Position numbers and translations under genes: made by a program
Source of the DNA: Cheilinus undulatus
Taxonomy: Eukaryota > Chordata > Actinopteri > Labriformes > Labridae
Direction: 5' to 3'
DNA length: 64,000 bases
Assembly (NCBI RefSeq): GCF_018320785.1
Contig: NC_054879.1
Span: forward strand, 46,922,198-46,986,197
Part shown: positions 61 through 24,700 of the stretch, piece by piece
Layout: the number at the start of each line of letters is the position of its first letter
Numbering within the stretch: position 1 is the first letter of the stretch
Notes under the pieces: generated by a model
Told to the model about the DNA's origin: nothing
The model's input: only the letters and a program-made list of their open reading frames with translations
Database searches by the model: none

Positions 61-3000
61 CTGAAGGTGTAAATTTCCTCCAAGCCATCCTCCTCATCCA
101 GGGTTAGCATGATGTGTTTTATCATGTCCAGACCGTCCTTCTGTTGGCTGGTCAGACCTTTGCCTGCGCCTGGATGACCGGGGCCTCTTCTGTCTGCATC
201 TCCTCCACCTTCTTCATCATCCTCCGCAGGGAATGGCAGACTGATAGAGATTAAAAAGAGGTATAGGTTTGAGTAAATTAGGTCCAAGGTTCAAGGTTCT
301 TTATTAGTACCCAAGGGGGTAAAGTGCGGACAGGAGTTCAGCGTCCAAGAGACAAAAACAACAATGATTCACAATCCACAAAATACATTAAAGCAGGAGT
401 GTCCAACTCAATCACAGCAGGGGCCAAAATCTGAATTTAGGTCTAACCTGAGGGCCTAACGGGGTCAAGATTAAACCAAAAACTGTCCACCATGTTTTCA
501 CAGGTAATAAAATCATAGGGGAAATTAAACAGTAATGATAAATGATATTAAGATTTCAAAAAAATAAACAGAAAAATAAAAAAGTCAAAATGAGTAAATA
601 TCACAGCATCAGTGTTACTGTGTGTACATGTCAAATAAATAAAATACTTACAAAAACTGCAGGGTGATGCCAGCTTGTTTCAGGTTTTCAATAATAACGT
701 CCAGGTTATCTGAGCTGGCCTGAGAGTTGAGGTCAGTGAGAAGTGCAATGATGAGACGATCACACTTTTTGTCCCTGAATTAAAAAAAAAAAACAGAGAC
801 AGGTTAAGGGAAAAACAAACATTCAAAAGTATGAACAAAGTTTGCTTTTTCTGTAATTCATCAGAGTTCTGTTTAAAATATAAAGTTCTGTCTTACTTTG
901 TTTCTCTCTGGAGGAGATCCATGCTGACGACTAGAGCATCCAGCCCTGATGAACATGAGTTAAGGTACTGATAGCTAGTCTCACACCATCCTGAGCTCAG
1001 TCTGTGGCTGTCTGCAGACAGGAGCTGGCATATGAATAACTAACATAACCTCACTGAACCATTGACTTTATCTGAGATGAAGAGCTCCATGTAAAAATAC
1101 AGTATACAGGTACATCTCAAAAAAATTAGAATATCATGAAAAAGTTCAATATTTTTTTGTCACTCATTTCTGAAAGTGAAACCCATATATAATACACACT
1201 TGTTACACATAAAGTTAAGTATTTCAAGCCTTTATTTCTTGAAATGTTGATGATTATGGCTTACAGATAGGAAAACCCAAAATTCAGTGTCTCAAAAAAT
1301 TATAATATTACATAAGATCAATAAAAAAAGGATATTTTAAACAGAAATGTCAGGCTTCTGAAAAGTATGCTCATTTCTATGCCTGAAATACTCAGTTGGG
1401 CCTCCTTTTGCATGAATTACTGCATCAATGTGGCGTGGCATGGAGGCAATCAGCCTGTGGCACTGCTCAGGTGTAATGGAAGCCCAGGTTGCTGCATTGT
1501 TGGGTCTGGTGTCTCTCATCTTCCATAGATTCTCTATGGGGTTCAGGTCAGAACCAAGCACAGTAACACCATGGTCATTGAAGCAGCTTTTGGTTCCTTT
1601 GGCAGTCTGGGCAGGTGCCAAGTCCTGCTGGAAAATGAAATCAGCATCTCCATAAAGCTTGTCAGCAGAAGGAAGCATGAAGGTCTCTAAAATGTCCTGG
1701 TAGATGGCTGCGTTGACTGTGGACTTCAGAAAACACAGTGGACCAACACCAGCAGATGCCATGGCAGCCCAAACCATCACTGACTGTGGAAACTTCACAC
1801 TGGACTTCAAGCAACGTGGATTCTGAGCCTCTCCACTCTTCCTCCAGACTCTGGGACCTTGATTTCCAAATGGCATGCAAAATGTACTTTCATCTGAAAA
1901 GAGGACTTTGGACCACTGAGACCTCAACAGTCCAGTTCTTTTTCTCCACAGCCCAGGTAAGATTCTTCTGACATAGTCTCTGGTTCAGGAGTGGCTTGAC
2001 ACTGGGAATGCCACATGTGTAGTCCATGTCTAGGATTGGTCTGTCCATAGTGGCTCTTGATGTGCTGACTCCAGCCTCAGTCCACTCCTTGTGAAGCTGC
2101 AGTTCTCCCTCATGCTGGTGCACCTTTTCCTACCACACTTTTTCCTTCCACTCAACTTTCTATGAATCTGCTTGGATACAGCACTCTGTGAACAAGCAGC
2201 TTCTTTAGCAATGACCTTTTGTGGCGTACCCTCAATGTCAATGACTGTCTTCTGGACTTCTGTCAAGTCTGCAGTCCTCCCCTTGATTGTGTATCCTACT
2301 GACCCAGACTGAGAGACCATTTAAAGGCTCAGGAAACCTTTGCAGGTGTTTGAAGTTCATTAGCTGATTAAGGTGTGACACCATGACTTTACAATATCAA
2401 ACTTAATCACAATATTCAAATTTTTTGAGACACTGAATTTTGGGTTTTCCTGTCTGTAAGCTGTAATCATCAACAGTTCAAGAAATAAAGGCCTGAAGTA
2501 TTTCACTCTATATGTAATGAGTCCATATAATATATGAGTTTCACTTTCAGAAGAGTGACAAAAAATATTGAACTTTTTCATGATATTCTAATTTTTTGAG
2601 ATGTACCTGTATGTCACCACATGCCAGAGTCACAAATGAATTGCATGTCTGTACAATGATGTCTGTACAATTATGATGAATTAGACAATCTTGTACAGAC
2701 ACTGAAACCAGTGCTTATAAAATGCAGCTCTGCTTTTCTAAGTACAACCCTGACATGTCATTAAAAAAGGATACAGTCAGCCTGGGAATTCTCTGGATGG
2801 ATCTGATTTTCTATTTCCTCCAGTAGCTCAAAATCAGGAATCTTAAGTTGGCGATGCACTGTTATGTTCTGGTACTGGTCATCCTGATCCAGGGGGTTGT
2901 TTGTGGAGTCTGTGCCAAACAGAACTAAAGCCAGTTCATCCTTTGTTTCAGCAAAAACCTGTCAATGAAATTTTTAATGCATGTAAGAAGACGTCAGCCA

Positions 3001-5943
3001 TAAAGTAGATCTCAATGTTTTGGAAGAGAGATGTGCATATCTGGACCTGGCGCTGGACAAACTTCTGGATGACTTTTTTGGCGAGATCAAAGTGAGACTC
3101 TTCACCCGGGGCAGAGTTGGACATGGAGAATCCAACATCCATGCACAGCACCAAAGCGGACTACAGAAAACAACAAGGACATGTCAGGTATTCAACCAGA
3201 GCAAGTTTACTTAGAATGATAACAAGTGAATTACATTTTTAAAAAGTTTTATTCATGCACCTGACGGCTCTCATGCTGTGAATATCAGCAAAGATGACAG
3301 CATAGTTTTATACAGTGCCATAAAAAGTATTTATTCCCTTGGATGTTGAACCCTTTGATTGGCTTTATTAATCAATCTTGGTCAATATAAGTTGGCTTTT
3401 CAGAAAAAAGTACAGAAAACTCTTTAATGTCAAAATGAAAACAGATTTCTAGAAAGTCTGTGCAAAAGTGCCCAACAGTCAGGTTGCAAGGGGATCGGGC
3501 ATGAACTGCCCTTTTTGAGTCCAGCCACAAATTCTCTACTGGACTGAGGTCTGGGATTTGACTCAGTCACTCCAGAACATTCCCCTTGTTGTCTTTAAAC
3601 CATTTCTGTGTAACTTTCTCTGTATGCTTCAGCTCATTGTCTTGTTGGAAAATAAATCTCTCAAGTCGTAGTTCGCTGCAGATTGAATAAGACTGTCCCC
3701 CTTCCTCTATTTTGCTGCATTCATTTAACCTCTATCTTTACAAGCCTTCCAGGGCCGGCTGCTGAGAAGCATCCCCACAGCATGATGCTGCCACTACCAT
3801 GCTTCACAGTGGGGATGGTGTGTTGTGGTGTCACAGAGTAGTCATAGGTGTCTTGGTGTCCTCTCTCACTAGTCTCCTTCTTGCACGCCCACTCAGTTTG
3901 TGAGGACGGTCTGATCTAGGCAGATTTACACATGTGACATATTCCTTCATTTCTTCATGATGGATTTGGCTGATCTCCAGGGGATGTTCGGAGCCTTGGA
4001 ATTCTTTTTGTATCCATCCCCTGATTCATACTTCTCAATAAACTTTTCTCTGAGTTGCTTGGAGTGTTCTTTAATCTTCATGATGTAATGGTAGGCAGGA
4101 ATACTGATTAACCACTGACTGGACCTTCTAGACTAAGGTGTCTTATACGTAAATCACTTGAGACACATTCACTGACCTCAGGTCCCATTTCACCAATTAT
4201 GAGACTGGAACTCTGTTGAATTAGGTCATTCACTCAAAAGGGGGTGAATATAAACTTAAAACAAAAAGTAAGGCAATTTGTGTTTGGTACATTATTTCTT
4301 TGTTGTAACAATGCTTCTTGGTAATTAATCTTTGAACTTTTGGAAAGCCTGTTTATTACCCTTTTAAATGATGCCACATTTGTAAGGATCATGCATTTGT
4401 GGGATGAGCAGCAGAGCTGAGTATGTGGGTTGTGCCCATGAAAATTGTGCCAAATCTTCTCTGCCAATGCCAAACGGCTTATTTTGCTGTTGTTTTTGAC
4501 TCTTGTTTTGAGCTTCTGGTACCCCCACCTGTGAGCATGGGCCCTGCTACAGTGGTCAGTAGACATCTGCTTCAAGGATCAGCATGCCACATTTGACTGA
4601 TCTGGATAGGGCCCGTCGGTTGGGCAACTTCAAGCTGATGTTCTGCAAAACCAAGTTGCGGCATTGTTTGGAGTGAACCCTAGTACCATCTCCAAACTGA
4701 AGGCCAAGTTCCATCTAACCAGGAATGTCAGAGACAGGCCGTGAAGTGGGCCAAGAAGACAACACCCCAAGAATACTGTTTTCTCACCCTGTCAGCAAGA
4801 ACTCTATCCTCCAAGATGACAACGCTCACCCCCACAGAGCGGGGTTTATCAGAGACTACCTCCAGAATTTGGGAGTGGAGAGGATGGGATGGCCTCCAGG
4901 TTGAAGAAAGGAGGAAGTGCCGGGCTGTCGTGGCTGTGTATGGTGCTTCCACACACTACTGAGGCTCCTGTTTGTTTAATGAATAAACTGTTAAATTGTC
5001 AATATGTCTTATTTCTTCAAACTTCAATCATCCAATCCACCAAACACCAAACAAGAGTCAACGGCAGAATCAGCTGTTTGGCATTGGCAGAAAATAGTTG
5101 GCACATTTTCATGGGCGCAACCCACATACTCAGCTCTGCTGCTCATCCCACAAATGCATGATCCTTACAAATGTGGCATCATTTAAAAGGGTAATAAACA
5201 GGCTTTCCAACAGTATATGATGTATTACCAAGAAGCATTGTTACAACAAAGAAATAATGTACCAAACACAAATTGCCTTACTTTTTGTTTTTAAGTTTAT
5301 ATGCAGTCACTTATTTGACATTACATATTTTTGTTTGACTTTACTTTGTAGTAATCGGTTTTCGATTTGACATCAAAGAGTTGTATTTTTTGTCAAAAAA
5401 GCCAAATATTATTGATCATAGTTTATTTAAAAGACCAATAAAAAGGTAAAACATAAGATAAGAAACAATTAAGATCACTGCAAATTATTTTTCTCTGGTT
5501 CCTTTTTTTGTAATTTTGTGCTTCGCTGGATTTTTTATTTAATGTATTAATCAGTTAAAGTGAAAATCGACTTATTTCATTGCTTTATTCGCCTTCCGAC
5601 TTTTTTTCATCTAAAAAAATAAATGATATTTTTCCATTCGGCAGAGTAAAAGTAAAACATTACATGTTATTTTTGCTCAAACACAAAGTTTTAATACGGG
5701 TGAACAGAGTAAAACCTGCTGCAGTTTGTTCTCAGAGTTATGAATGGGCGTGAATAGTCCGCTTCAGTCTCAACATGTCCAAACATGTCTTTAACGTTGG
5801 GAGTGAAAAACCCGGACACAGTGATAATAATGACGTCATCAAGCATGCAGTTTAACTAAATATGATACAAAAGACGCTGAATAAAAGGGCTGTTCAGTTA
5901 ATTCATCATATAGCATAAAGTTTCTTACTTTAGAACCTGCCAT
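61..5943 (-). CDS. xrcc5: Ku80 (X-ray repair cross-complementing 5), N-terminal part, exons 1-6
   Basis: This encodes the large subunit of the Ku heterodimer, which binds DNA ends in non-homologous end joining together with Ku70 and DNA-PKcs in the nucleus. Coding exons in transcript order are 5929-5943 (MAGSK), 3047-3160, 2775-2958, 897-945, 652-774 and 61-240, all with GT-AG borders and continuous frame. The translation follows the Ku80 von Willebrand A-like domain: [15 protein letters not shown], then [54 protein letters not shown], then [13 protein letters not shown] and EEDGLEEIY. The gene runs off the left edge, so the beta-barrel, DNA-binding bridge and C-terminal arm are outside the window. 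Nothing in the visible exons is broken. Start choice: the ATG at 5943 is directly followed by a donor, and human Ku80 likewise has a very short first coding exon. Introns 1 and 3 carry Tc1 insertions. Confidence 0.93.
241..651. repeat. hAT-like repeat fragment in an xrcc5 intron
   Basis: From 393 the sequence starts with CAGGAGTGTCCAACTCAATC, a variant of the CAGGGGTGTCAAACTC terminus seen in many copies in this window. It continues with the usual GC-rich cap and then A-rich sequence to about 600. No matching right terminus is seen, so this is a truncated copy. The stretch 292-345 (an AAGGTTCTTTATTAG-type string) also looks repetitive but I cannot assign it to a family. Confidence 0.5.
1107..2609 (-). 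mobile_element. Tc1-like transposon (broken), in xrcc5 intron 3
   Basis: The element is bounded by TA dinucleotides at 1105-1106 and 2610-2611 and has inverted termini that begin CAGGTACATCTCAAAAA and extend for about 80 bp. The minus strand carries remains of a Tc1 transposase. The N-terminal helix-turn-helix part (residues like [20 protein letters not shown]) lies at about 2030-2320 and the catalytic part at 1337-1927, in different frames. The catalytic part keeps [21 protein letters not shown] and DLNPIENLW. About five residues are missing just before DLNPIENLW, at the usual WPANSP motif, which shortens the DD34E spacing. With the frame break as well, the copy cannot be active. The same termini, more decayed, recur at 44121. 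Confidence 0.88.
3314..5460 (-). mobile_element. Tc1-like transposon (decayed), split by a second element, in xrcc5 intron 1
   Basis: The left terminus reads TACAGTGCCATAAAAAGTAT, matching the family seen whole at 35535-36510. The minus strand shows transposase remains around 3500-3660 (the reverse complement encodes a segment ending in a DLSPVENLW-like motif) and the family's 5' leader at about 4080-4245. The element then breaks at 4248 and resumes at about 5301 with the family's subterminal sequence, continuing to about 5455. The distal terminus is not recognisable. The order of segments shows that the element at 4248-5300 inserted into this one. Confidence 0.72.
4248..5300. mobile_element. 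Internally deleted Tc1-like element with long inverted repeats, nested in another Tc1
   Basis: Two arms of about 260 bp (4248-4515 and 5045-5300) are reverse complements; both carry the string GGCAATTTGTGTTTGGTACA or its complement. The core keeps pieces of a plus-strand transposase. At 4580-4740 there is a helix-turn-helix segment with the motifs [19 protein letters not shown]-like residues and [11 protein letters not shown]. At about 4815-4895 an [10 protein letters not shown]-like strip matches the sequence after the second catalytic aspartate. The middle of the gene is missing. The flanks read ATAT on both sides, consistent with insertion at TA within the older element. Confidence 0.75.
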
Positions 5944-9200: not shown

Positions 9201-10037
9201 CAGGGGTGTCAAACTCAAGGCCCGGGGGCCAAATACGGCCTGTGGAACAGTTAAATACGGCCCACGAGATCATATGATATTTCTGTTATAACTGGCCCAT
9301 CAGTATTCAGATTTCCTCAAGTATAAAAATGTTATCCTTAAAGATTTAAAATATCCTTAAGTCATAAAATCTGAAAAAATTAAGGAGTGAAAATACTTAG
9401 ATAAAAGTCAGGAATGTGGTAAAATTAATTGATTTGTGTTTTAATTTCATATTTTCAATTTTGCATCTCACAATTAGGACTCAAACTTAGAATTCTCACT
9501 TTTTATTTCATACTTTGAGCATTTCAACTCATAATTTTGTCTTCTTTTATAAAATTTTGAGCTTTTAGATTTGTATTTTTAAAAATTTAAGAAATGTTTT
9601 GACCTTTTTAAATAATTATTTTGCATTTTATCTCATATTTTCAACTCCTTACTTTGACTTCATAATCCAATAGTTTGACCTTTTAGACTAACATTTTAAC
9701 AATACAATTTAATATCATGTTTTGACCTTTTAAGTTCATAATTTTGACTTCTTTCTAATATATTTGCCTTTAAAAAACATAATTTTTCAATTTCAATTTC
9801 ATGTTTTGACCTTTTTGAACTAATAATTTTACTTTTTTCAGATTATGAGCCTTTAAAATGATCTTTTTTAACCTCAAAATAATTTTTCATCGGTGCAAAG
9901 GTTGTTTTTTATTTCATATTTTATCACTGGTGAAATGTGGTTGACAGTTTATGGTTGAAAAGGTGACCCTGTTAGGCCCTCAGGTTAGACCTGAATCCAG
10001 AATTCGGCCCCTGCTGTGATTGAGTTTGACACCCCTG
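9201..10037. mobile_element. Non-autonomous hAT-like element (CAGGGGTGTC family)
   Basis: The termini are CAGGGGTGTCAAACTCAAGG at the left and GAGTTTGACACCCCTG at the right. The interior is the family's T-rich degenerate tandem sequence. The flanking octamers (ATCTAAGC and ATTTAAAG) agree only partly, so the target duplication is eroded or absent. The element sits about 165 bp past the tmem169 stop codon, probably in or near its 3' UTR. Confidence 0.82.
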
Positions 10038-10201: not shown

Positions 10202-12851
10202 TCACACTGAGGATGTCTGGGCAAGTTCGCTCGGGGCTTTGCTCTGCAGAGTGCCAGAGACCGTATCAGAGTCAAGCAGCTCCACTATGCTATAAGGTGA
10301 GCAGTCCTCCAGCCCCAGCTTCCCACAGGCCCAGCCACAGAATCCCTTCTCCAGGTCTCTGACAGCCTGCCACCACTCACTGGCGGCCCAGGACACCTGC
10401 ACCACGGCCGAGTACAGAGCCAGAGACAGCGCCATGGGCATGATGAGCATGGGGTAGAAGATGATGAGGAAGGGGCATATGGTTATCTTGTGCCAGAACG
10501 TCCGCTCCTCATTGTACACCAGGAAGACGTTGTACCAGGTGAGGGTGCCGTAGTAGAAGGAGGTGATGAAGGAGAGGAGGAAAACCACAGGGGCGCAGGA
10601 GAGGCTCCACAGGACGACGTGGGGTCCCTGGCAAAAGCCTAAGCCACAGGTGCGTTTAGCTCCTTCGCCTGCCTCGCACTCAGCATCAAGACGTTCCTTT
10701 GACTTGGCCAGATCCCGGATTTCCTTCTCTGTCAAAGTGAGGTGGATGTCCACCAGCTGGCCTTTCTTCTTTCCTCGAGTGATGGTGCCTGTCAGTGTGA
10801 CGTAGCGGCTGTCTGGAGGAAGGCTCCAGCCTCCACCTAACACGAGAGATACAACACAACATTATCACATTAGGGAAAATTAAATATTTCTCTCTTTTAT
10901 TCGTCTTCCTGCAAGGATTGACATCAAACCCCTTTGTTGTTCATGGTTTCTGAGGTTTTATGTGATGTTATTTCATCTTATACATCAGGGGTGTCAAACT
11001 CAATCACAGCAGGGGCCGAATTCTGAACCTGGGTCTAACCTGAGGGCCTAGCAGGATCCATATTTAACCATAAAATGCCAACCGTGTTTTCAACAGAAAT
11101 GAATTATGGGGGTAAAAAACTTGGCAATGATGAGAAATGATTTTGCGATTAAAGGTGAACATGATAAGCAAAAACTCAAAATCTGAGATAAAAGGTCAAA
11201 GTTATAAGTTTAAAAGGTAAAAACATGACATTTAAAGTCAAAATAATGTTTTTAAAAGGCAAAATATGAGATAGAATACTGAAACCATTAATTCTAAAAG
11301 TCAAAAACTGAGATAAAATTCAAAATCATGAATTTACAGTCAAAATACTGTATGAGATCAACATTGAAATCATGAATTTCAAATGTCAAAATATGAAATA
11401 AAATTAAAAATCATAAGCTTTAAGGTAAAAAAAAATGAGATAAAATTTAAAGTTAGGAGTTGAAAAGGTCAAAATGTGAGATAAAAGTCAAAATTGTGAT
11501 TTTAAAAAGCAAAATATGAGATAAGTTACTTAAACCATGAATTTTAAAAGTCAAAAATTCGATTAAAAGTCAAAATCATGATTTTTAACAGTCAAAATAT
11601 GAGGTAAACGTCAAATCATGAGTTTGTAAATGTCAAAATATGAAATTAAATTAAAAATGAGTTTTAAAGGTAAAAAATTTAGATAAAAGTTAAAGTTAGG
11701 AGTTGAAAAAGGTCAAAACATGAGATAAAAGTCAAAATCATGATTTTAAAAGGTCAAAAAACTGAGATCAAATATAAAATCATGAATTTTAAGGTTAAAA
11801 AATTTTAAATAAAAGTTAAAAGTTGAAAAAGGTCAAAACATGAGATAAAAGTCAAAATCATGACTTTAGAAGGTCTAAATAAGATCTGAAATTCAAAATT
11901 ATGAATCTGAAAGGTAAAAATATGAGATAAAAAGTCAGAGTTATGAGATGTTAAGGTTCAAATATGAAATAGAAAGTCAAAACCATAACTTTTAGTCATA
12001 ATGTGAGATGCAAAATTGAAAATATAAAGAAAACAAGAATTTATTTCCCACAAACCTGACTTTTTATCAAATTATTTTTACTGTTTACATTTTCTAATTT
12101 TTATGACTCAACAATGATGTTATAAATCATCAAGGTTAAGTTTACATTTTTATACTGGAGGAAATCTGCAGACCTCATACTGGTGGGCCAGTTCTAATAA
12201 AAATATCATATGATCTGGTGGGCCGGGTGTAACTGCAACATGGGCCGGATTTGGACCCCGGGCCCTGAGTTTGACACCCCTGTGTTATAACAAAGGTACC
12301 ACAAATTTCACTACAGTCACCTTAACTGAGTTAAAATCTTTGTTAATCCATCAACTAGCAATTGTTTAGATTAGCTTGTTCATAAATAAGGAGCTAAAAA
12401 AATCAAATGATCTCTAAAGTTATAATTGATTCATGACATAAGAAAGGGACAATTGATAACCAGCTTCTCACCTTCTCCTGTAGGTGTGCAGAGGAATTTA
12501 GCCCCCTCCTCTGTGCTCCTCTCTCCTCCCTCCTCACCACCCTGCTCCTCTCCAGACGTCCTCTCCATCTCAGACCTGTACACAATAATGGACTCTGGAC
12601 GTGGGTCTTTCTTCTTCCTCCTCTTCCTCCTTATAGAGGGTCCTGATTCTCCGTCATCCACATGGTTTCCTGATATGTCTGATCTTAAGGAGATCATCTG
12701 AGGGCTGCCCTCTCCTTCAGTCTGAGACTCCTCTACATGTGCCATAGTCTCACCTGGTCTTGGAAAGTCTTTTGACTCTTGTAAGCTACTTTTTACAGGG
12801 TTGATGACGGACGTCCAACCATCGTGTGCAAGGATTTAGGAGGGTTTCCAG
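10202..12851 (-). CDS. tmem169: Transmembrane protein 169, complete
   Basis: There are two coding exons: 12472-12745 (ATG at 12743-12745) and 10202-10836, joined in phase 1, giving 302 aa; human TMEM169 is about 297. The first coding exon appears to extend as 5' UTR to an acceptor near 12852. The N-terminus is acidic/basic and cytosolic-looking, with RRKRRKKKDPRPESIIVYRS. It is followed by the conserved DSRYVTLTGTITRGKKKGQ (residues 100-118). Two membrane segments lie at about 165-185 and 211-238, separated by the conserved VYNEERTFWHK. The tail holds EKGFCGWACGKLGLEDCSPY and SIVELLDSD. The molecular function of this family is unknown to me. The same order beside xrcc5 is, from memory, conserved in human. 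Frame and splice sites are intact. The intron contains a 1.3 kb hAT-like element (10986-12282). Confidence 0.93.
10986..12282. mobile_element. Non-autonomous hAT-like element in the tmem169 intron
   Basis: It starts CAGGGGTGTCAAACTCAATC and ends GAGTTTGACACCCCTG. Relative to the copy at 6444 it is inverted and more complete, and the two share long stretches of interior. The interior is a degenerate tandem of strings like AAAGTCAAAATCATGATTTT. The flanking 8-mers (TTATACAT, TGTTATAA) do not match cleanly. There is no coding capacity. Confidence 0.83.
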
Positions 12852-13704: not shown

Positions 13705-13917
13705 CAGGGATGTCAGACTCAGTCACAGCAGGGGCCGAATCCGGAATTTGGGTCTAACATGAGGGCCTAACCGGGTCAAGATTTCCCATAAACGGTCAGC
13801 CTCATCTTCACCGCTAACAAATTATGGGGAAAAAACGTAACATTGATGATAACTGATGTTGAGATAAAAAAAAAAAGAAGTCAAAAGTGAGAATCATGAT
13901 CTTAAACAGTTAAAGTA

Positions 13918-13950
<33 letters not shown>

Positions 13951-14830
13951 AAAAACACGAGTTTAAATAAGTCAAAATATGAGATAAAATCCAAAACCAT
14001 GAGTTTAAAAGGTCTAAATATGAGATAAAAAATTCAAAATTTTAAATAGAAAAGATCAATTTTATGGCGCTTGCCAGGGACCCCACGTCGTCCTGTGGTT
14101 TTCCTCCTCTCCTTCATCACCTCCTTCTACTACGGCACCCTCACCTGGTACAGCGTCTTCCTGGTGTACAATGAGGAGCGGACGTTCTGGCACACGATAA
14201 CCATATGCCCCTTCCTCATCATCTTCTACCCCATGCTCATCATGCCCACGGCGCTGGCTCCTTTTTTATGGATATTTAGAATATTTTGTTGAAAATGTCA
14301 TGATATGAGAAAAAAATTCTAAATCAAGAGTTTAGAAGCAGAAAATATGAGTTAAAATTCAAAATTATGAGTTTTAAAGGTCATAAGATGGGATAAAACA
14401 TTTTTAATTTTAAATCAAAGATCAATATTTGGGATTAAAAAATATATTTAAAATATTTGGTTGAAAATGTAATAATATGAGAAAAAAATCAAAATCAAGA
14501 GTTTATAAGCAGAAAATATGAGATAAAATTCAAAAACAAGAGTTTTCAATGTCAAAATATGAGAAAAAATTCAAAATATTGGGTTAGAAGGTCCAAAGAT
14601 GGGTTAAAAATTTAAGATTTTAATGTTTGGGATTAAAATTCAAAGTTAGGAGTTGAAAATGTCAAAATGTTAGATAAAATTCCATTTCATGTGTTTAAAA
14701 CGTCGAAATATGACATAAAAATTAAAATTGTGAATAAATGGTCAAAATATGATGTTAAAGTCAAAAACATAACTTTAAGTCTAATTGTGAGAAATTGTGT
14801 GCAAATTAGAAAATGGTGAGGAGAGACAAA
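13705..14830. mobile_element. hAT-like element carrying a captured gene fragment
   Basis: The left terminus CAGGGATGTCAGACTCAGTC is a diverged form of CAGGGGTGTCAAACTC, followed by the family's GGGCCGAATCC cap and the A-rich interior. The interior is interrupted by poly-A at 13919-13949 and by a block of exon sequence from tmem169 (14071-14256), then resumes with the same A-rich repeats to about 14830. The right terminus is not found. Confidence 0.65.
14071..14256 (+). pseudogene. Duplicated fragment of tmem169 second coding exon
   Basis: The block is nearly identical to the tmem169 coding sequence at 10428-10634, in opposite orientation and about 3.5 kb away. It keeps the stretch for VVFLLSFITSFYYGTLTWY and VYNEERTFWH. 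I count three substitutions (giving N to S, K to T and M to T) and one 22-bp deletion between two CCTGTGG direct repeats present in the source, which shifts the frame. It has no start, stop or splice sites of its own. Low divergence implies a recent copy, and its position inside hAT-type sequence suggests capture by a transposon. Confidence 0.88.
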
Positions 14831-15239
14831 AAATTAGTTGACTAAAATTGGCAAAAAGCAGCAAAAAGTTGGGAAAATGGGCAAAAATTAGAAAAAGAGG
14901 CACCTCATTGGGCGAAACGTGGGAAAAATGGCAAAGGGGGGCGGCAGACTGTAAATAGCAAAAAGCAGGATAAAAGTGTCGAGAACTGGTTTAAAAAGGG
15001 GCAATAACTGGATAAAATTGACAACTAGAAAAGCACTCGGAGACCGCAGACCTCCGCCATTAGCCCTATCTCCCAATAGTAAAGAATCCTTTTACAGAGG
15101 TTTCTGTGGGGGGCGCCACAGAGCTTCAGGGGAGGCATGGAACCATAAACCTGAAAAAGGTGATTTGCTTTGCTAACCTCTGCTGTGTATTGAGCAAAAT
15201 GGATGGACTTATAGTTAGTATAGGGACTATGCTATAGAG
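14831..15239. repeat. Repeat mosaic: A-rich tandem remains and a dispersed repeat piece
   Basis: 14831-15010 consists of degenerate AAAAATGGGCAAAAAG-type units, as in hAT interiors elsewhere in the window. 15020-15110 (AAAAGCACTCGGAGACCGCA, then GACCTCCGCCATT) looks like one end of a dispersed repeat whose other end type appears at 19990-20030 (CCTTGGCGGAGGTAAT). No gene is seen. Confidence 0.45.
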
Positions 15240-16043
15240 CAGTGTTACTCAACCCTCAACCAAAGAGCAAAATTGTTGAAAAATACTTTGCAAGAGCCAC
15301 AATCCAAGAGGTAAAAAGTGGCAAAAACAGCTTGAAGTCGCAATAAAAATAGGTTAAAGGTGGCAAAATGGTCCAAAAGCAGCAAAAAAGGGTGAAAAGG
15401 GGGAAAATGGGGTGAAAAAGTGGAAAAATGGTCAGAAAGTAGCAGAAATGGGTGAATAGTGACAAAAAATGAGTGAAAAGTGACTTAAATGGGCAAAAAG
15501 TAGTCAAAAGTGGCAAAAATGGGCAAAAAAAGATGAAATGGCATGTAATGGCAAAAGGTAGCTTAAATGGGGAAAAAGTGGCAAAAAAAAATGTAGAAAA
15601 GGGCAAACACTGGGAAAAAATGGCAAAAAGAAGAGGCAAAACTTGGGAAAAAAGTGAACAAGTGGTATCTAATGGCAAAGGGTAGCATGGGAAAAAAAAA
15701 GTGGCAAAAAAAATTGTAAAAAAAAAAAAAAAAGGCAAAAATGGGGATAAAAGTGGCAAAAATTGGGGAAAAGTGTCAAAAGGATGTTGCAAAAATGAGC
15801 CAAAAAAAAGGAAAAGAAGGATATTTAATGATGAAAGTTAGCTTAAATGGACAAAAAGTGGCTAAAAAATAGTTCTAAAAAAGGCAAAAAATGGGATAAA
15901 ACTGGAAAAAATTGGGAAAAAGTGGCAAAAGGACATCGCAAAAAATGAGCAAAAAAAGGGAAAAGGGATATTTAATGATGACAGGTAGCTTAAATGGACA
16001 AAAAGGTGAAAAAGGGCAAAAATTGGATAAAAGTGGAAAAAGG
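15240..16043. mobile_element. hAT-like element (CAGTGTTACTCAACC family), left part
   Basis: It starts CAGTGTTACTCAACCCTCAA and continues AGAGCAAAATTGTTGAAAAA and a run of AAAAGTGGCAAAAATGGG-type units. The same left end and interior occur in the complete copy at 29644-30751. The sequence is cut at 16044 by the foldback element; no right terminus is found beyond 19605. The long open frames here are by-products of the low-complexity interior. Confidence 0.65.
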
Positions 16044-16099
16044 TATTTCTACGGTGGCCCTGAAGGCCAACAGGAAATAAATATTTCAAAAGCGCAAAA

Positions 16100-16777
16100 T
16101 ACATTTCACAAAACACAAAAACATTTCACAATACACAAAAACATTTCACAATACACAAAAACATTTCACAATACACAAAAACATTTCACAATACACAAAT
16201 ACATTTCACAAAACACAAAAACATTTCACCGATCGCAAAATACATTTCACAATACACAAAAACATTTCACAATACACAAAAACATTTCACCGATCGCAAA
16301 ATACATTTCACAATACACAAAAACATTTCACAATACACAAAAACATTTCACCGATCGCAAAATACATTTCACAATACACAAAAACATTTCACAATACACA
16401 AAAACATTTCACAATACACAAAAACATTTCACAATACACAAAAACATTTCACAATACACAAAAACATTTCACAATACACAAAAACATTTCACAATACACA
16501 AAAGCATTTCACCGATCACAAAATACATTTCACAATACACAAATACATTTCACAATACACAAAAACATTTCACAATACACAAAAGCATTTCACCGATCAC
16601 AAAATACATTTCACAATACACAAATACATTTCACAATACACAAAAACATTTCACCGATCGCAAAATACATTTCACAATACACAAAAACATTTCACAATAC
16701 ACAAAAACATTTCACAATACACAAAAACATTTCACAATACACAAAAACATTTCACCGATCGCAAAATACATTTCACG
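16100..16777 (+). repeat. Minisatellite, 20-bp unit, left arm of the foldback element
   Basis: Over 30 head-to-tail copies of ACATTTCACAATACACAAAA, with interspersed 20-21 bp variants ending CACCGATCGCAAAAT. Because 20 bp is not a multiple of three, the array reads through all frames with a 20-residue period; this explains a 293-codon open frame here that is not a gene. Confidence 0.95.
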
Positions 16778-19047
16778 AAACCGGAAAGGGTAGGACCATG
16801 GTGCTTGTTTGTGATTGGCTAAACCCAAGTCTGTCCGGCATCAGTCATTTATCATTTCCTGTTTACACTTCTTACCGCAATGGCTGAGCCAACGCGAAAT
16901 TTGAAGTGTCTACCGGCATGGAAGAGGAACTTGAGTTGTTAGCGGAATACTTCAACAAGGGAAATACATATAGTGTGATTCTTGATATGCTCTCATCATG
17001 ACATACACATTTCAGTTGGAAGCCTAAAATCGCGCTGAAAGTGTCGTGCCAAAAGAAGTACCCCGGTAGGATTTGTATCCCCGCCGCCTTTGCCGAAGGA
17101 GCTGACTATCGACTATCAGGCGTAGATTTCCAGTGAATAAAAATGACAATAAAAGAATGTATAAAGCAGAAGATTAGTTTTGATCATCTGTTTTATTCAT
17201 CATTATCGTGTTTTTGTCAGTAATATCTTTTAAAATAAGATCTTTTAAGTAAACGTTTTGATACTGCAGCTTGGTGCACACTCATTACGCCGAACCAAGA
17301 ACGCATCTTTTTCCTCCTGCGTCCTGTCATTGTATTTTGGCGGCGTGTTGGTCATCAAATCTGGGTCCACGCTGCTGTACATGAGTAACAGACATATTTT
17401 CTTCATAACTTTTATCATCTTCTATTAGCGCTGTTTAGCGTCAAGCCGATGACATGCACTCACCACTTCCCACTTCCGCCTCGAGGTATTTCAAAATAAA
17501 GGTCCTGCATAGCCATTTCACTGAATATTAACTTGTCTATTGACCAGTCTGAACAAGATATATGTACAGAGAGATCAATTTCAGACCATTTATTTCAACA
17601 CATCGTCCACTTTGACTGCATCCCACTCTAAACAAGTGTTTCACAGTGTAAAGAACTGTAAAAAACAAAGGAACATTTAATTGCAATCAAATATGTCATC
17701 TCTTCAGGATGTATACATGGTGTACTACTGCCTTGTCTTTGCTTTAATGCAAATTACAAATGATTTTAGGTCTCATTTTAGCTTTGCCAGGATTTGTACC
17801 CCCATCCACAAGGAAGAGGTGGGGCCCCCTGCCTCAATAGACTTTTCTTGGCCGGCTCTCATGACAACTGATGACATTTGGGACTTTGGAGAAGTTTGAA
17901 GCATTACTCTTGAAGTTAGAGGGGGGATAACAAATACATCAGGCCTAGATTTGGCCCTGAAATAATTTGTATCCCCCTGTAACTTGAAATAGAAGTGAGT
18001 TAACCTGTTCAAACTCTCCAGTATTATCAGGCTTGATCAGAAATGAACACAAAATGAATGTTATGATGGTAGTTCATGATTTGAGCATTCTGGAGGGGGG
18101 ATACACTTTGCACCATTTATACACCCTGAAGAGATGACATATTTGATCGCACTTTAAATGTTCCTTTGTTTTTTACAGTTCTTTACACTGTGAAACACTT
18201 GTTTAGAGTGGGATGCAGTCAAAGTGGACGATGTGTTGAAATAAATGGTCTGAAATTGATCTCTCTGTACATATATCTTGTTCAGACTGGTCAATAGACA
18301 AGTTAATATTCAGTGAAATGGCTATGCAGGACCTTTATTTTGAAATACCTCGAGGCGGAAGTGGGAAGTGGTGAGTGCATGTCATCGGCTTGACGCTAAA
18401 CAGCGCTAATAGAAGATGATAAAAGTTATGAAGAAAATATGTCTGTTACTCATGTACAGCAGCGTGGACCCAGATTTGATGACCAACACGCCGCCAAAAT
18501 ACAATGACAGGACGCAGGAGGAAAAAGATGCGTTCTTGGTTCGGCGTAATGAGTGTGCACCAAGCTGCAGTATCAAAACGTTTACTTAAAAGATCTTATT
18601 TTAAAAGATATTACCGACAAAAACACGATAATGATGAATAAAACAGATGATCAAAACTAATCTTCTGCTTTATACATTCTTTTATTGTCATTTTTATTCA
18701 CTGAGGCGAAATCTACGCCTGATAGTCGATAGTCAGCTCCTTCGGCAAAGGCGGCAGGGGGATACAAATCCTACCGGGGGTACTTCTTTTGGCACGACAC
18801 TTTCAGCGCGATATTAGGCTTCCAACTGAAATGTGTATGTCATGATACGAGGAGAGCATATCAAGAATCACACTATATGTATTTCCCTTGTTGAAGTATT
18901 CCGCTAACAACTCAAGTTCCTCTTCCATGCCGGTAGACACTTCAAATTTCGCGTTGGCTCAGCCATTGCGGTAAGAAGTGTAAACAGGAAATGATAAATG
19001 ACTGATGCCGGACAGACTTGGGTTTAGCCAATCACAAACAAGCACCA

Positions 19048-19555
19048 GGTTTCGTGAAATGTATTTTGCGATCGGTGAAATGTTTTTGTGTATTGTGAAA
19101 TGTTTTTGTGTATTGTGAAATGTTTTTGTGTATTGTGAAATGTTTTTGTGTATTGTGAAATGTTTTTGTGTTTTGTGAAATGTATTTTGCGATCGGTGAA
19201 ATGTTTTTGTGTATTGTGAAATGTATTTTGCGATCGGTGAAATGTTTTTGTGTATTGTGAAATGTTTTTGTGTTTTGTGAAATGTTTTTGTGTTTTGTGA
19301 AATGTATTTTGCAATCGGTGAAATGTTTTTGTGTTTTGTGAAATGTTTTTGTGTTTTGTGAAATGTATTTTGCGATCGGTGAAATGTTTTTGTGTATTGT
19401 GAAATTTATTTTGCGATCGGTGAAATGTTTTTGTGTATTGTGAAATGTTTTTGTGTTTTGTGAAATGTTTTTGTGTTTTGTGAAATGTTTTTGTGTATTG
19501 TGAAATGTTTTCGTGTATTGTGAAATGTTTTTGTGTGTCGTGAAATATATTTTGC
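19048..19555 (-). repeat. Minisatellite, 20-bp unit, right arm of the foldback element
   Basis: The same unit as the left arm in reverse complement (TTTTGTGTATTGTGAAATGT), about 25 copies with the same GATCGG variants. It is shorter than the left array, so the arms have changed copy number independently. Confidence 0.93.
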
Positions 19556-19605
19556 GCTTTTGAAATATTTATTTCCTGTTGGCCTTCAGGGCCACCGTAT
19601 ATTTC

Positions 19606-20089
19606 ATAGCATTATAACTGAATTAGAGGGAAAGGCAGATGTTTAAGGACATTTGCAAACCAAAATATCCAAAATAAATTAATGTTAAAAATGTTTTAAG
19701 ATTAGACATAAATGTTTAAAAATGTTGCTGTTTAATTTTATTATTATTATTATTATTTTATTTGAATCCTTTTTGTGGGTGGGGGTCCACTGAATGAATA
19801 ATTTCTTCTTAAGGGAGGCTCATTCTCCCACACTTTGAAAATGCCTGCTTAAAAAACGTCCTGGACCCAGACGGTGATCCGGATCAGTCACAAAAGCTGA
19901 TCAGCTCTTTCTTAAGCCATTTCTGCAATTTCCTGAAAATGTCATCAAAATCTGTCCATAACTTTCGAGTTATGTTGCTAACAAACAAACCCTACCGATC
20001 ACAAAACCGCCTTGGCGGAGGTAATACAAGTTTAATAACGGAAATAACGTCGTTTTTTACGGGATATAACGGGAGAACGTCGTTCTTAA
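19606..20089. repeat. Unclassified dispersed repeat fragment and TTA microsatellite
   Basis: 19738-19756 is a short (TTA)n run. 19855-20030 contains GATCCGGATCAGTCACAAAA, AAAATCTGTCCATAACTTTC and CCGCCTTGGCGGAGGTAAT, a pattern I recognise as a widespread animal dispersed repeat end without being able to name its family. No gene is seen. 20035-20089 is a degenerate entry into the following array. Confidence 0.45.
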
Positions 20090-21683
20090 CCAACATCCTG
20101 GTTTAATAACGTCGTTTCTGTTGTGTTGGATGAGGCTAATATCCTGGTTTAATAACGTCGTTTCTGTTGTGTTGGATGAGGCTAATATCCTGGTTTAATA
20201 ACGTCGTTTCTGTTGTGTTGGATGAGGTTAATATCCTGGTTTAATAACGTCAGTTCTGTTGTGTTGGATGAGGCTAATATCCTGGTTTAATAACGTCGTT
20301 TCTGTTGTGTTGGATGAGGCTAATATCCTGGTGTTTCTTGATGAGGCTAATATCCTGGTGTAATAACGTCGTTTCTGTTGTGTTGGATGAGGCTAATATC
20401 CTGGTTTAATAACGTCGGTTCTGTTGTGTTGGATGAGGCTAATATCCTGGTTTAATAACGTCGTTTCTGATGTGTTGGATGAGGCTAATATCCTGGTTTA
20501 ATAACGTCGTTTCTGTTGTGTTGGATGAGGCTAATATCCTGGTTTAATAACGTCGTTTCTGTTGTGTTGGATGAGGCTGATATCCTGGTTTAATAACGTC
20601 GTTTCTGTTGTGTTGGATGAGGCTGATATCCTGGTTTAATAACGTCGGTTCTGTTGTGTTGGATGAGGCTGATATCCTGGTTTAATAACGTCGTTTCTGT
20701 TGTGTTGGATGAGGCTAATATCCTGGTTTAATAACGTCGTTTCTGTTGTGTTGGATGAGGCTAATATCCTGGTTTAATAACGTCGTTTCTGTTGTGTTGG
20801 ATGAGGCTAATATCCTGGTTTAATAACGTCGTTTCTGTTGTGTTGGATGAGGCTAATATCCTGGTTTAATAACGTCGTTTCTGTTGTGTTGGATGAGGCT
20901 AATATCCTGGTTTAATAACGTCGTTTCTGTTGTGTTGGATGAGGTTAATATCCTGGTTTAATAACGTCAGTTCTGTTGTGTTGGATGAGGCTAATATCCT
21001 GGTTTAATAACGTCGTTTCTGTTGTGTTGGATGAGGTTAATATCCTGGTTTAATAACGTCGTTTCTGTTGTGTTGGATGAGGCTAATATCCTGGTTTAAT
21101 AACGTCGTTTCTGTTGTGTTGGATGAGGCTAATATCCTGGTTTAATAACGTCGTTTCTGTTGTGTTGGATGAGGCTAATATCCTGGTGTAATAACGTCGT
21201 TTCTGTTGTGTTGGATGAGGCTAATATCCTGGTTTAATAACGTCGGTTCTGTTGTGTTGGATGAGGCTAATATCCTGGTTTAATAACGTCGGTTCTGTTG
21301 TGTTGGATGAGGCTGATATCCTGGTTTAATAACGTCGTTTCTGTTGTGTTGGATGAGGCTAATATCCTGGTTTAATAACGTCGTTTCTGTTGTGTTGGAT
21401 GAGGCTAATATCCTGGTTTAATAACGTCGGTTCTGTTGTGTTGGATGAGGCTAATATCCGGGTTTAATAACGTCGTTTCTGTTGTGTTGGATGAGGCTAA
21501 TATCCTGGTTTAATAACGTCGTTTCTGTTGTGTTGGATGAGGCTAATATCCTGGTTTAATAACGTCGTTTCTGTTGTGTTGGATGAGGCTAATATCCTGG
21601 TTTAATAACGTCGTTTCTGTTGTGTTGGATGAGGCTAATATCCTGGTTTAATAACGTCGTTTCTGTTGTGTTGGATGAGGCAG
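20090..21683 (+). repeat. Minisatellite, 46-bp unit, about 35 copies
   Basis: The unit starts TCCTGGTTTAATAACGTCGT and continues TTCTGTTGTGTTGGATGAGG then CTAATA; the period is 46 bp (checked by spacing of AACGTC). Units are almost identical, differing mainly at GTCGTTT versus GTCGGTT or GTCAGTT and GGCTAAT versus GGTTAAT or GGCTGAT. One unit near 20320-20345 is shortened. The array ends in a partial unit (GTGTTGGATGAGGC) that runs straight into the 5' UTR of the gene starting at 21765. The absence of unique spacers rules out a CRISPR-like structure. Confidence 0.97.
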
Positions 21684-21764
21684 GTGAACTCCCACGAGCG
21701 TTACGGCAGCAGCACGCGCTGTCAGTTGAAACAGGGGTCGGCTAATGGTTCATTTGCTGCTAAA

Positions 21765-24700
21765 ATGGACGACCAATACTCGTTTAATAATATTGACAAC
21801 CTGCTTTTCCAGTGTGGTGGGTTACCTTTTAGAGTTTTATGTTGCTTATTAATGGTTTTATGTTTTATAATTAGTTTTGTGGGCTTTATTTACTTCAAAG
21901 GTAAAGCTAGCTAAGTTAGCGCTTAGCTAAAGACATCAGGAAGCTACTTTCAGTGCTCTGAGCTAAAACTTTCGTTTTTGTGATAAATTTTAAAAGGATA
22001 CGAGTTTATTTCATAGAAAATAACCTTTGTGTGTTCTTTATAGCTCTTCAAACTCGGGAGCTTACCCAGAAGAAGAATGAATTAAATCAACAAATAAAAG
22101 GTATGTCTAAGTTGCACAATTATACACGAGGAATGACGGAGGAACAAATAGAAATATTGCCTCACATTTTAAAACCTTGAGCTGTTTTTCATCCAGTTTT
22201 GACATTATGAACAGTTTTCAGAGATGACATTGCTGAGAGGAAATCTTACATCCAAACAATTCAAAGCAAAACCCAAAAACTTGAAGAAAAAATCATGGCA
22301 TTGCAGAGCACTCTGATGCACAATAAAGCATGTGCTAAAAGGTATGATGACTAATAAGTCACATAAGAATGGATCACAGTGATACTTAATCATAACTAGA
22401 TTAATATTTGTCTGCTTGTTGTTCATCCAGCATTAAGACTACTAACAGCCTGCTTGGCCAGTATGAGCAATCGCTCAAAGAAGAACTGGCGAGCAGAAAA
22501 GTCAGCTACGACAATGACACGTGGGTTCTGTTTGCTATAATGTCTGATTGTAAAATAAATATTTTGAGCAAATTATAAAGCTTTATTTCTCCTTTCTGTC
22601 AACTAACTAGGAAAGTCTTTGAAGAGAAAATTGCAGACTGTAAGAAGAAATTTCAGTCCTATAAAGACTTCTATTGCCAAAGTCCTCTTGCACAAAAGCT
22701 CCTGGCGCTGCAGGCTGAAAATGAGGAGATTGAGTCTAGGATCAAGGCTTGTGATGACCAGATATCAGTAAAACAGAAAGAGCTGGACAATCTCAGGGGT
22801 GATAAACTTGATAACATCATTATATTACTTGCTTTGGTAGTGCTGAACAATTTCTAGTACCTTTGACATGTTTTTTCTAGGTCCAGGTGCACATTCTTCT
22901 GCTGCTGAGAATCTGTCAGACAGGTACTGTATTTTTCAGTGAATTTTACTGATAGTGTTGATACAAAGCCTCCAGCAAAGTTTTTTCTCTGATTGGGTCT
23001 TCATTTGTCTCCAGTACGCCAGAACAGCAGCCTTTACCACTACCAGAGAAACAACCGTATCCTCAGACAGAAGAAGACAGTGGACCTTCCATTGATATCT
23101 CCTCTCTTCATCTTAACCAAACTAAAGTATTCAGAAGTATCAATCAATACTAGTAGCATTACCTGAACTGTAAAGGTTTGAGGTTGTACCTTATAACCCA
23201 GGGGTGTCAAACTCAATCACCGCAGGGGCCAGATTCTGGATTTAGGTCTAACCTGAGGGCCTGAAAGGGTCAACATTTAACCATAACTGTCAACCTCATT
23301 TTCACTAGTGATAAAATATATTTAAAAAAAAAACAGCACTGATGATAAATCATTTGGAAATTCAAAACAGTAAAAATGATAAGTTTTAAAGGCTCAAATC
23401 TGAGATAAAAAGTCCAAAGTATTAGTTCAAAAGATCAGAACACAATATAAAAAACAGAAAAATAATGTTAAAGAGCAAAAGATATATAAGGAGAAAGTTG
23501 AAATCATAAATTTGAAAGGTCAAAATGTGAGATCAAAATCATGTTTAAAAGTTAAAATATGACTTCAAATTTTAAATTGTGAGTCTGATAGTTCAAAATA
23601 TGGGATTAAAAAGCCAAAATTAGGAGTTGAAAATGTCAAAATATGACTTTGGTAATCTAAAAAATAAAACTGTGACATATAAACTCCAAATTATGAGTTG
23701 AAAAGGTCAAAGCATGAAATGAAAAGTCAAAATCATAAGTTTGAGTCTTAAACTTGAGATGCAGAATTGGAAATTTAAAATAAAAACACAAATTAATATC
23801 TTTCCCCACATTATTGACCATTTTGAAATCTTTCTTACTCTTTTTCAGATTTTTATGGCTTAACAAAGATATTTTAAATTATCAAGTTGAATTTTAAATT
23901 ATCATACTGGAGGAAATCAGCAGAGCTCATACTGGTGGGCCAGTTAGAATACAATTATGATCTGATCTTGGGGGCCGGATATAATTGTTCCACGGGCCGG
24001 AGTTGGCCCCTGGTCCTTGAGTTTGACACCCCTGCTATAACCATTCACCAATTAAAAAGGAGAAAAAACATCTCAATACATCTTTTGTAGGATGATGAGA
24101 ATACATCTGTGGACGCGAATGATGAAGAAATATTTGAGGAACGCAAGGTCCAGGATACCCCCACCCACAGCTTTGTCCCAGAAGAGGAAACCACAAGGGT
24201 GCTGTCAAGACAACAGCTGAAAGGTAAGCTGTGTGGTCTTGTTACATATTTTATCAAACACTTGACACAACATGTAAAATCGTAGGGTGCTGGTTAAGAT
24301 CAGCTGGTACAGTGGGTGTCCCCATACAGAAGCTATGAAGTCCTCCACAAACTGGTTGCAGGATTTAAACATGATTCTAAAGCTGTTTGTTGCATGTCCT
24401 CTAACACTCTCTCCATATTTCCCTGCTCTCTCCAGCAGTTATATCCAATAAAGCAGGGGTGTCAAACTCAAGGCCCAGGGGCCAAAACCGGCCCCTGCTG
24501 CAGTTTTACCCGGACCGCAGGATCATATCATATTTTAATTAGAACTGGCCTGTAGGTCTGAATTCTGCAGAGTTCCTCCAGAGTAGAAATAAGAATTTAA
24601 GCTTGAGGATTTGAAATATCCTCCATAGAAATTTGAAAAAGAGTAAAAAATATAATGAGATAGAAAGTAATTTAATATTTGCAATTTGCATTTCAAAATT

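Follow-up and report, generated by a model that had tools for sequence, protein, structure and literature searches.

A fragment of the last tmem169 exon inside a truncated hAT element of Cheilinus undulatus: a likely repair patch rather than a transposon capture

In a 64,000-nucleotide stretch of the Cheilinus undulatus genome (NC_054879.1, positions 46,922,198 to 46,986,197 of the forward strand; hereafter the window, in whose coordinates all positions are given), a copy of part of the last coding exon of tmem169 lies in inverted orientation inside a hAT element, with both of its junctions in element sequence. The match between this copy and tmem169 is far beyond chance, and its insertion into the element is a real, fairly recent event. 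We regard it as quite likely that the copy is a templated insertion, made by gap filling or template switching within a hAT MITE that was already old. The features on which the argument draws are the following.

9201..10037, minus strand: second copy of the host's hAT family, just 3' of tmem169 (family alignment)
10202..10836, minus strand: last coding exon of tmem169, running from its splice acceptor to the stop codon (sequence reading alone; homology)
10427..10634, minus strand: source segment, which falls within the last tmem169 coding exon (BLAST match to the copy)
10986..12282, plus strand: third copy of the host's hAT family, located in the tmem169 intron and retaining both TIRs (family alignment)
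12472..12745, minus strand: first coding exon of tmem169, running from the start codon to its splice donor (sequence reading alone; homology)
13705..14059, plus strand: left part of the host hAT element, left TIR at 13705 (family alignment, TIR motif)
14060..14067, plus strand: TTTTATGG, left unit of the 8-bp direct repeat that marks the junctions (chance 2.5-4%)
14068..14070, plus strand: left junction filler of 3 bases (CGC), alternatively belonging to the 8 bases ATGGCGCT that match the source at its other end (chance 5.9%)
14071..14256, plus strand (sense on the plus strand): inserted copy of the tmem169 exon fragment, with 3 substitutions and a 22-bp deletion relative to the source and without an intact gene frame
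14257..14263, plus strand: right junction filler, about 7 bases, possibly continued source with a mismatch or a 6-bp skip
14264..14271, plus strand: TTTTATGG, right unit of the 8-bp direct repeat
14272..14814, plus strand: right part of the host hAT element, truncated, right TIR missing (family alignment)

A BLAST search against the window aligns 14071-14256 with 10591-10427 on the minus strand at 162/165 identities (E 3e-79) and with 10634-10607, also minus, at 28/28 identities. The two matching pieces of the copy share seven bases, CCTGTGG, and therefore 22 bp found in the source between two CCTGTGG words are absent from the copy; the deletion thus falls between 7-bp direct repeats. These alignments bear out the earlier note, which had described tmem169 coding sequence on the opposite strand with three substitutions and one 22-bp deletion, the source beginning at 10427 where the note had placed it at 10428. 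As that note had also said, the copy is inverted and local, and it is fairly recent. The insert differs from its source at 3/186 positions (1.6%, 95% interval 0.3-4.6%), lies 3,437 bp from it and sits some 1.3 kb upstream of the gene's first coding exon.

The 302-residue translation of the two tmem169 exons matches transmembrane protein 169 of many fishes (211 hits, 120 listed), the best match among those listed being that of another wrasse, Halichoeres trimaculatus, at 93%; the homologues carry the listing PF15052. Read in the frame of the source, all three substitutions in the copy alter the protein (N194S, K208T and M226T), and the 22-bp deletion breaks the frame. The polarity of these changes was examined in an alignment of 35 of the 120 listed homologues, 36 rows with the query. 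N194 and K208 are identical in 36/36 rows; position 226 is V in 17, M in 13, L in four and I in two, with T in none; and no row of the 36 has a gap at the stretch corresponding to the deletion. As the gene keeps the common state in this alignment, the odd state at the three sites and the deletion belong to the copy.

The repeat that flanks the copy on both sides is A-rich and belongs to one large family, for which a genome search returned 5,291 first-look candidates, 40 of which were scored. The sibling set consists of 29 loci besides the host (L005-L033), which are the best matches to the host and hence were picked for likeness, and two of which (L009 and L018) overlap. Both TIR motifs, with up to four substitutions allowed, are present in 22 of the 29, and among these 22 an exact 8-bp target duplication is seen in eight and a 7-of-8 duplication in seven more. 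Short TIRs beginning with CAGGG together with 8-bp target duplications are the signature of hAT elements. The family is accordingly hAT by its TIRs and target duplications, the host itself retaining the left TIR only, and the A-rich hAT-type sequence previously noted on both sides of the copy is thereby confirmed. The host's similarity to its family stops near 14814, and the family's right end, which other parts of the window do contain, is not matched anywhere from 14814 to 23842, which makes the host a truncated relic today. Within the host there is a loosely repeated unit of about 41 bp, and an internal duplication (14272-14608 and 14444-14759, shift about 172 bp) whose second unit holds a paralogous empty site. 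Self-comparison of the window also reveals a tandem satellite array at 20092-21681 (shifts of about 46 bp); two inverted arms, each about 1.46 kb long, at 16260-17722 and 18111-19570, which are 94% identical, are separated by 0.4 kb and may form a large foldback element; and the inverted pairs 4248-4492/5059-5302 and 60313-60595/63718-64000 (92-93% identity), perhaps the ends of other DNA transposons.

When the insert and one member of the TTTTATGG repeat are taken out, the flanks align across the joint in 29/29 sibling loci. This count is weak evidence by itself, given that the siblings had been selected by resemblance to the host, that L009 and L018 overlap, and that joins at shifted positions cross as well. 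Since the loose repeat of about 41 bp lets other joins cross, 42 joins were compared by score, which is the better test. Averaged over the 29 siblings, the true join scores 129.1 bits and ranks first, and the means of the 41 shifted ones are 87.8-125.6 bits; the margin over the runner-up at 125.6 bits, in which the left flank is moved by 10 bases, is modest. The junctions, whose exact mapping the earlier note had proposed, are thus placed within element sequence on both sides. The siblings' empty site mostly reads about CAATATTTGGGATTAAAANTTATATTTAG (35 rows), and as the middle part of this sequence is not seen at the host joint, roughly ten element bases were lost or replaced. Allowing up to three edits, a loose search recovered the missing bases in 29/29 siblings and not near the host joint, but it also matched elsewhere in the host flank and is therefore not specific.

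No clear microhomology was found at the outer joints. An 8-base repeat placed like TTTTATGG occurs at 2.5-4% of random places in similar sequence with flanks of 10-14 bases, so that the repeat is suggestive only; a 7-base repeat with the left flank one base shorter has a chance of 6.6-15%. A staggered cut may have duplicated TTTTATGG, or the repeat may be a coincidence. The left joint also shows eight bases, ATGGCGCT, that match the source segment at its far end, with a chance of 5.9%.

With the insert as query, a search of the 1.17-Gb assembly gave two first-look candidates, both scored, and three matches, of which two are pieces of the source and one is the copy. No further copy of the fragment, and hence none of the other fragment-carrying copies of this hAT that the earlier note had suggested looking for, was recovered in this assembly. 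The relative age of host and insert was judged against a majority consensus of 34 subjects (29 loci and five window stretches). The host diverges from it by 9.1% with no filter and by 7.4, 5.2 and 4.1% under successively stricter filters, compared with 1.6% for the insert (Fisher P 0.0001, 0.0015, 0.045 and 0.12, loosest to strictest); a separate estimate gives 5.3% for the host (P 0.03). The choice of loci for likeness biases the host divergence low, that is, against the older-host reading. These values suggest that the element was in place before the piece arrived, probably though not certainly: an older host is supported but not proven, as the age difference rests on three substitutions and is not significant under the strictest filter.

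The small internal gap, the nearby inverted source, the lack of a further copy and the old, broken host together fit repair or template switching within a relic. We think it likely that a break or a stalled replication fork arose within the old A-rich hAT MITE upstream of tmem169, that repair copied about 200 bases of the nearby last exon from the opposite strand, and that the element was then rejoined. At the rejoining about ten element bases would have been lost or replaced, leaving the 8-bp direct repeat and a few filler bases, and the 22 bases between the two CCTGTGG repeats would have been skipped during copying or later, in a manner that resembles slippage in repair synthesis. We infer a break or fork stalling as the trigger, and the template was presumably DNA rather than RNA. 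In favor of this proposal are the join ranking, the single copy, the host divergence, the 3,437-bp distance and the deletion between 7-bp repeats; against it are the dependence of the age gap on three substitutions, the modest join margin, the 8-bp repeat and the want of clear microhomology at the outer joints.

Such patches have precedents. Like the class 2 TSIPs of Onozawa and Aplan 2016 (PMC5110952), the copy is a templated patch without poly(A), with a small target loss and filler bases; unlike them, its source is 3.4 kb off rather than distant and a short direct repeat is present, class 2 having none. It likewise resembles the MMBIR templated insertions of Osia et al. 2021 (PMC8421209), in which a short insertion from another template is followed by a return to the original, and differs from those described there in having no clear microhomology at the outer joints and in being germline and old. 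Close counterparts are also found among the Pack-TIRs of Tan et al. 2021 (PMC8277862), of which 370 were reported in 100 animal genomes (81 of them vertebrate), 208 of them in hAT elements and eight in zebrafish. In that survey 160 of 281 unique cases lie at most 15 kb from their source, the majority of these under 5 kb; the internal gap is small (median 4.6% of the element); and single-copy cases are mostly ascribed to transposition-independent gap filling. Our copy agrees with such single-copy cases in being a gene fragment internal to a hAT element, present once, with its source under 5 kb away. It also agrees with the survey's thresholds in its length ratio of 0.894 (0.8-1.2), identity of 98% (at least 90%), length of 186 bp (100-5000) and unique source. 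The survey also asks that no transposon lie within 100 bp of the parental copy; for the host's own family, the nearest elements end at 10037 and start at 10986, so that none of this family comes within 100 bp of the source. It differs from Pack-TIRs in the 8-bp direct repeat at the joints and in the host's missing right TIR; in a Pack-TIR each of the two flanks must take in 10 bp or more of the element terminals, and our host, which has only its left end, would therefore fail the two-TIR filter of that survey.

The earlier note had favored capture by the transposon. Its placement of the fragment inside a hAT element stands, with both junctions in element sequence; capture as an act of transposition is not supported. 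That a hAT element picked up the fragment while transposing or during repair after its own excision, and brought it here or was still mobile, seems to us improbable. The internal setting in an element with a left TIR would suit such an origin, as would the hAT share of the animal Pack-TIRs (208/370) and the transposition-driven multicopy cases known in frogs and alligators (PMC8277862), but those multicopy cases are always distal to their source, which here is only 3.4 kb off, and the insert is internal rather than terminal. Active capture was rejected on the single copy in the assembly, the truncation of the host (though loss of the right TIR may postdate capture) and the older look of the host relative to the insert (P 0.0001-0.12). 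The copy shares with Turmoil-1 style transduplication (PMC2572040) the presence of gene sequence within a DNA transposon; in Turmoil-1 the captured sequence forms part of the element family's own ends, and no movement is seen here.

Retroposition of a tmem169 RNA fragment by LINE machinery, with TTTTATGG as its target-site duplication, is equally doubtful. The 8-bp repeat contains TTTT/A, as in class 1 insertions (PMC5110952), but a repeat of this kind, as noted, arises by chance at 2.5-4% of places; the fragment spans no intron junction, both of its ends lying within the coding exon; and neither end carries a poly(A) or poly(T) tail longer than a run of six T, which makes this origin unlikely and was the reason for its rejection. 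Less likely still is an inverted duplication of a larger local stretch, or recombination between the oppositely oriented hAT copies around the source exon (9201-10037 minus and 13705-14814 plus), later whittled down: same-family elements do flank that exon, the one at 9201-10037 lying in the opposite orientation to the host, but the copied segment ends about 390 bp before that element and about 350 bp before the one at 10986-12282, holds none of the unique sequence between the source and either of them, and has flanks that rejoin as element sequence, and the possibility was rejected when self-comparison of the window (at least 92% identity, at least 60 bp) gave no further tmem169-derived block, the unrelated inverted duplication that the earlier note had allowed for thus finding no support.

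The repair patch that we favor has left a single scrap of a gene, probably inert. As the insert is a 186-bp inverted partner of the tmem169 exon, a minus-strand transcript from beyond 14256 would carry both the antisense copy and the sense exon and could fold back as a hairpin RNA, a newborn self-targeting small-RNA locus, but we give this outcome very little credence. The view of the earlier note that such captures are rarely documented in vertebrates is out of date in light of the Pack-TIR survey (370 cases in 100 animal genomes, 81 vertebrate, 208 in hAT elements; PMC8277862), and the present case is of a kind already described and probably ordinary, a fish addition to the existing catalogue that changes no known rule. 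As a clean example, the case suggests that dead A-rich hAT elements are landing places for repair patches from nearby genes, so that a piece of a gene found within a transposon is not necessarily a capture by that transposon.
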